Virus record (IMG/VR): IMGVR_UViG_3300030098_001199
Span: 1,503-21,671 of that record
Direction: 5' to 3' (one strand)
Source of the DNA: a virus
DNA length: 20,169 nucleotides
Numbering within the stretch: the stretch's first letter is position 1; each line of letters opens with the position of its first letter. Shown here piece by piece: positions 456 through 522 of the stretch. Made by a program: the position numbers and the translations under genes. The notes beneath the pieces are model-generated. The model searched no databases. It saw nothing but the letters and a program-made list of their open reading frames with translations, and was not told the DNA's origin.

Positions 456-522
456 GCGGGTGCCAATGGATGACTACAGCCTTCCAAGCTAGTATACAGG
501 AGTTCGATTCTCCTCACCCGCT
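456..522 (+). tRNA. tRNA-Gly(UCC)-like element with a nearly absent D-arm
   Basis: A 7-bp acceptor stem pairs GCGGGTG (456-462) with CACCCGC (515-521), followed by a T discriminator at 522. A perfect 5-bp T-stem, AGGAG (498-502) with CTCCT (510-514), encloses the canonical loop TTCGATT. The 7-base anticodon loop CTTCCAA (481-487) gives anticodon TCC, reading GGA glycine codons. Its stem is TACAGC (475-480) with GCT-A-GTA (488-494), six pairs with A491 bulged, or only three pairs in standard register. Just 12 bases (463-474) separate acceptor and anticodon stems, where about 19 are normal, leaving at best a 2-bp CC/GG mini-hairpin for the D-arm. CCA is not encoded. It may be a reduced functional tRNA, a decaying pseudo-tRNA, or a tRNA-like processing signal 5' of the capsid message. 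Confidence 0.62.

Follow-up and report, generated by a model that had tools for sequence, protein, structure and literature searches.

The locus lies in a 20,169-nucleotide stretch of viral DNA (the window), part of a 21.7-kb virus record which carries T7-like cyanophage capsid and tail genes (Autographiviridae); P-SSP10, NATL2A-133 and P-SSP7 are relatives of this phage. On the forward strand a 68-amino-acid open reading frame (244-450), whose homologous DNA in P-SSP10 and NATL2A-133 has annotated small ORFs, ends 5 nt before a tRNA-like element (456-522), which is followed by a leader RNA, here called the body (523-584), and by the major capsid protein gene (644-1831), an ORF homologous to annotated T7-like capsid genes. 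A strong GC hairpin with a T-run behind the capsid gene (1856-1886) is likely to be a terminator. Upstream of the window, in the same record (L081), a Glutamine-II riboswitch (531-587, 54.7 bits) follows directly on an ORF resembling a high-light-inducible protein (at about 348-523) and precedes a small downstream-peptide-like ORF; ten N directly before the start of the window (L081, 1036-1045) represent a scaffold gap.

The element at 456-522 resembles a tRNA-Gly(UCC) from which the D-arm is missing. The 5' strand of the acceptor stem (GCGGGTG, 456-462) pairs at all seven positions with the 3' strand (CACCCGC, 515-521), behind which T522 occupies the discriminator position, and the T-arm (498-514) consists of five pairs (AGGAG with CTCCT, 498-502/510-514) closing the loop TTCGATT; the 7-bp acceptor stem and the 5-bp T-stem with T-loop of a canonical tRNA are therefore present. 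The anticodon arm (475-494) has a stem formed by 475-480 and 488-494 with a bulged A491, and a loop (481-487, CTTCCAA) containing UCC at 483-485. Acceptor and anticodon stems are separated by a connector of 12 bases (463-474), in which no D-stem can form; it has GG at 468-469, where a tRNA has G18 and G19, and GA at 472-473. No CCA end is encoded after T522. The sequence thus matches the original prediction, which had described this acceptor stem, T-arm, CTTCCAA loop, 12-base gap and bulged A491 without a D-arm. A covariance-model search, proposed with that prediction as a check, returned a match to the Rfam tRNA family (RF00005) covering exactly 456-522 with 25.4 bits, slightly short of the gathering threshold of 29 bits; the E-value was 0.19 when all 4227 families were searched against the whole window, and 4.8e-5 in a single-family search of the 21.7-kb record. 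ARAGORN called no tRNA and no tmRNA in the window. The predicted fold had a z-score of -2.2, and the minimum free energy (MFE) structure contained the acceptor stem and T-arm, without the anticodon arm.

Scans of viral contigs, some capsid-based and some by sequence pattern, gave a total of 397 distinct capsid leaders, among which the same D-arm-less form was found in about 50 cyanopodovirus leaders; one further leader (L190) was left out of this count as an intact tRNA cut by the end of its contig. No cultured isolate with the D-arm-less form was found. Thirty-three distinct D-arm-less sequences (connector 11-12 nt, element 67-68 nt) could be used for counts of base pairing, and standard pairs were observed in 615 of 627 pair cells (98%). 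Of the cells in the 25 sequences without gaps, 98.9% were paired, both sides of the pair had changed in 32 cells compared to 8.6 in shuffled alignments (0/500), and sliding of the partner strands lowered pairing to 34-50%. Acceptor pair 4-69 showed compensatory exchange between G-C and A-U and pair 6-67 occurred as U-A, U-G or C-G, while the T-arm combined an invariant loop core with one compensatory pair. The original prediction had proposed selection on the acceptor and T stems and had named compensatory changes in related phages as the evidence to look for; since the stem changes are compensatory, this selection is borne out. In the anticodon stem 10 of 14 columns varied with pairing retained, and three pairs always lay between the loop and the bulged A. 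The UUCCAA of loop positions 33-38, the bulged A, the connector GG and GA and the discriminator U were invariant in all 33 sequences, and 6 of 11 connector columns varied around the fixed GG and GA; one of the pattern scans had itself fixed the T-loop and the acceptor CGC and another the anticodon loop, but the capsid-based scans, which are free of this bias, returned six D-arm-less forms with the same features in all. When the tRNA model was applied to 27 other virus records with the D-arm-less element, each scored between 25 and 36 bits and 19 of them exceeded the cut-off; no second tRNA was found by the model in the contig fragments of these records. A chance origin is excluded by these model scores and by the pairing counts, and the tRNA-like element at 456-522 is confirmed as real.

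An intact tRNA-Gly occupies the same place in close relatives, as would be expected of a tRNA pseudogene in decay or of a deletion or assembly artefact. The original prediction had taken a full D-arm in close relatives to indicate such a local deletion or assembly error; a full D-arm was indeed found, in phages with capsids up to identical, but no such error is implied, as the D-arm-less sequences make up a family of their own, which is widespread and covaries. About 50 leaders have this form, with compensatory changes and an invariant loop, and the capsid tree requires at least 29 changes between its presence and its absence. Covariation and wide distribution rule out decay and artefact, to which we assign hardly any probability; absence of the D-arm is, on the comparative sequence evidence, the conserved state of a family. 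Descent from tRNA-Gly(UCC) by loss of the D-arm is the best explanation of its origin.

Phage attP sites are often located in tRNA sequences, and the original prediction had accordingly allowed for the remnant of a prophage attachment site. This part of it is disfavoured, its probability being negligible. The attP of T7-like cyanophages matches tRNA-Leu and adjoins the integrase (PMC8776855), and no integrase was noted among the ORFs listed for the window. One scanned D-arm-less variant pattern had no host copy in 84,980 genomes, with the exception of a mis-binned phage contig (L587, PBPX01000064.1); this sole match carries psbA, a T7-like capsid gene, the D-arm-less element and the whole leader, and is a cyanophage fragment inside an Actinomycetota MAG bin. 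Stem covariation and the fixed spacing to the capsid leader (see below) also argue against an attachment site.

The D-arm-less element was found to be one of four modules which occupy the same site; the original prediction missed this larger system of interchangeable modules on one conserved leader RNA. An intact tRNA-Gly(UCC) was present in 51 leaders and is annotated in NATL1A-7; in one of these leaders (L005, 158-316) a tRNA-Ser(GCU) gene immediately precedes the module. A 'mini' module consisting of acceptor stem and T-arm was present in 130 leaders, including those of P-SSP7, P-SSP2, P-GSP1 and S-TIP37; L149, in which the D and anticodon arms are both gone, retains acceptor and T-arm. The commonest module (149 leaders, among them P-SSP10, NATL2A-133, P-SSP6 and S-RIP2) is a hairpin with a near-invariant 15-nt loop of the CACCUCAGAGUCGGA type (CACCUC) on a freely covarying stem. 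No known motif was recognised in this loop, and its interpretation as a tRNA-like loop was unsupported, the position matching A58 changing to U. Only four full-length leaders could not be assigned to the four modules; three of them had a T-arm-like structure with a loop of 8 nt. A FastTree phylogeny of the capsids of 328 leaders required at least 85 module changes. Two phages with identical capsids (L092 and L150) carry the intact tRNA and the D-arm-less form, respectively, and the capsid of NATL1A-7 is 99.4% identical to that of a D-arm-less phage. Given these frequent changes and swaps, the sequences indicate that the modules are exchanged by recombination, and the four are presumably functionally equivalent.

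In 98 of 103 callable mini-form leaders (e.g. L012, L015, L063, L072, L197 and L205) the Glutamine-II 'downstream peptide' (YRG..Y..) was observed to terminate at a stop codon inside the tRNA-like element. The 5' strand of the mini-form acceptor is therefore coding, and translation of the peptide would be predicted to unfold the element.

All four modules abut a body of about 60 nt which starts with UUGGC. In the window it comprises the initial UU, helix P1 (525-529/553-557), an inner GG/CC pairing (532-533/549-550), a tetraloop hairpin P2 (534-537/541-544) and a hairpin P4 (567-571/578-582), as derived from the window fold and from the MFE structures of 105 distinct bodies. P1 was formed in 98 of these 105, with exchange of its fourth pair between U-A, A-U and G-C. 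The body also contains a conserved palindrome, CCGTCTAGACGG (556-567), whose variants in relatives (CCGTCATGACGG and CCGTCGACGG) remain palindromic, with CCGTGACGG found elsewhere; because it shares positions with the 3' strand of P1, palindrome and helix may form as alternatives to each other. No Rfam family matched the body, RF00005 at 456-522 being the only match over 456-640. Matches to the CrcZ, snoRNA and TarB families were rejected as far below their own cut-offs, the weak CrcZ match originating from the GC hairpin behind the capsid gene.

The distance between module and body was strictly kept. From the end of the T-loop to the body it was 13 or 14 nt in 232 of 232 T-loop modules (13 nt in the window), the distance expected in a tRNA (5+7+1), and in 148 of 149 leaders of the hairpin class a distance of 11 or 12 nt separated the end of the loop from the body. 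A perfect acceptor partner was found in 85 of 104 mini forms, compared to 15% with shuffled upstream sequence; 35 different acceptor pairs were observed, and the split between T-stem and acceptor varied while the stack remained at 11-13 bp. The part common to the three tRNA-like modules is thus an acceptor/T-arm stack of approximately 11-13 bp (12 bp in the D-arm-less forms).

The reading favoured here, which we consider to have about an even chance of being right, is that the element is a processing site or otherwise defines the 5' end of the capsid mRNA; it would probably mark where the capsid message is cut or protected. Processing was among three options offered by the original prediction, and is favoured because the common stack of 11-12 bp constitutes a minimal RNase P substrate: at the sequence level a stack of about 12 bp within a longer transcript is present, and RNase P cleaves minihelices of acceptor stem, T-stem and T-loop as well as viral tRNA-like structures (PMC11143913). 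Host tRNA-processing enzymes would recognise the 12-bp stack in the long phage transcript, RNase P cutting before G456 (455/456) and RNase Z after T522 (522/523), to yield a capsid mRNA which starts 5'-UU with the P1 helix immediately after. Such a short structured 5' end would be expected to resist 5'-end-dependent decay (RNase E/J), since cyanobacteria possess RNase P, Z and E together with a 5'-3' RNase J that is essential (PMC10989914). The structure, its covariation, the strict spacing and the exchange of modules are observed, whereas cleavages, enzymes and protection are inferred. In the 51 leaders with an intact tRNA-Gly, maturation would need a cut exactly at the start of the body. The main difficulty lies in the commonest module, the hairpin (149/397), which lacks a T-loop and for which no processing enzyme is known; if the processing model holds, this class must act through another enzyme or without cleavage. 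In addition, the invariant anticodon loop of the D-arm-less class would be superfluous in a site that serves processing only, and the anticodon arm is absent from the MFE structure of the window.

A rival reading which would account for that invariant loop is a working reduced tRNA-Gly, which would be transcribed, trimmed, CCA-tailed and charged by host GlyRS and would read GGA and GGG codons without a D-arm, as in some mitochondria. The bacterial GlyRS identity elements are U73, G1-C72, C2-G71, C35 and C36 (PMC9976931). All of these are retained in the D-arm-less class, and a true reduced tRNA-Gly is for this reason possible; loop positions 33-38 are fixed while the stem turns over, GG is kept for the elbow contact and an intact tRNA-Gly(UCC) occupies the same site in near relatives. 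Charging of the D-arm-less form by GlyRS, with or without decoding, is likewise possible judging from these bases. A functional tRNA is nevertheless rather unlikely, as the absence of a D-stem removes the (G10-Y25):G45 core triple, the anticodon stem contains a bulge, ARAGORN rejects the element and the mini forms found at this site lack an anticodon altogether. The glycine codons of the window phage are mainly GGU (254, compared to 90 GGA and 9 GGG); GGA is not enriched, and codon supply was rejected as an explanation. We know of no use of D-arm-less tRNAs by bacterial ribosomes.

The same identity bases and the 5' UTR position would suit a sensor in which the D-arm-less form binds host GlyRS, or reports on uncharged or charged tRNA, and so regulates translation of the capsid gene; operators of the thrS type bind their synthetase, and the Glutamine-II riboswitch upstream in many of these phages places nutrient sensing nearby. 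Mini and hairpin modules serve the same gene without these bases, however, and such sensing is considered very improbable.

A further alternative accommodates the hairpin class: the module is never cut, and forms a rigid stacked helix beside the body which shields the RNA from nucleases or binds a phage or host protein, so that any module of the right length suffices. The hairpins, which have no T-loop, take the same position and are spaced just as strictly, modules swap freely and the leader folds as tandem helices. With such a role, however, the T-loop consensus, discriminator and anticodon loop would be expected to drift; no drift was seen, and we judge an uncut helix to be a doubtful alternative.

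The window element shares with phage- and host-type tRNA-Gly(UCC) the acceptor GCG..CGC, U73, T-arm, UUCCAA loop and position (as in NATL1A-7 and others), but differs in lacking a D-arm, in the bulged A of the anticodon stem, in its length of 67-68 nt and in its own stem sequences. D-arm-less mitochondrial tRNAs (metazoan tRNA-Ser and the minimal tRNAs of nematodes and mites; PMC7609411, PMC2797822) similarly replace the D-arm by a connector while retaining the acceptor, the T-arm and an extended anticodon arm; the present form, by contrast, belongs to the capsid leader of a bacterial virus, where still smaller forms without an anticodon arm also occur. An acceptor/T-arm stack inside a longer RNA, with the other arms reduced, is also seen where tRNA-like structures serve as RNase P/Z signals, as in mascRNA from the 3' end of MALAT1, in the tRNA-like structure of TYMV, which RNase P cleaves, and in model minihelices for RNase P; unlike these, the phage element lies 5' of an mRNA, at a fixed distance from a conserved RNA, and its cleavage is putative. 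The tRNA-like domain of tmRNA has an acceptor, a T-arm and a D-loop without a D-stem; in contrast to this otherwise similar domain, the phage element has an invariant G3-C70 rather than G3-U70 (alanine identity), no tag frame, and no tmRNA match in the window. Marine cyanophage leader RNAs in Rfam (Glutamine-II/downstream-peptide, PhotoRC, wcaG, manA; PMC2864571) are likewise structured 5' elements, but the capsid leader matches none of them.

No description of a cyanophage tRNA-like capsid leader was found in the open-licence literature and, within that literature and Rfam, the composite leader as a whole appears to be undescribed. In its full form the proposal, to which we give somewhat less than an even chance, is that a body carries four exchangeable 5' modules at a fixed distance, three of them tRNA-derived by degrees (full, D-arm-less, acceptor and T-arm), that the 5' end of the capsid message and its stability would be determined by host tRNA processing, and that folding of the mini form would be coupled to translation of a peptide controlled by the glutamine riboswitch. 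In abundant ocean phages a single genomic site presents a natural gradation of forms, from the intact tRNA down to a minimal acceptor/T-arm element. Isolates exist at both ends (NATL1A-7; P-SSP7 and S-TIP37), so that exaptation of a tRNA as part of an mRNA can be tested directly. If cleavage occurs, these phages would use host tRNA enzymes as mitochondria use tRNA punctuation. The leader body would represent a new family of RNAs, carried by the transcript for the most abundant protein of the virion.

A perfect DNA palindrome (TTACG-TG-CGTAA, 601-612) was also observed between the body and the capsid ATG of the window. In 347 leaders (within L001-L577) the longest palindrome in this interval had 91 distinct sequences, the sequence changing while the symmetry stays, and a mean length of 10.8 compared to 6.5 in shuffled sequences, which suggests a contact for RNA dimerisation or a symmetric protein site.
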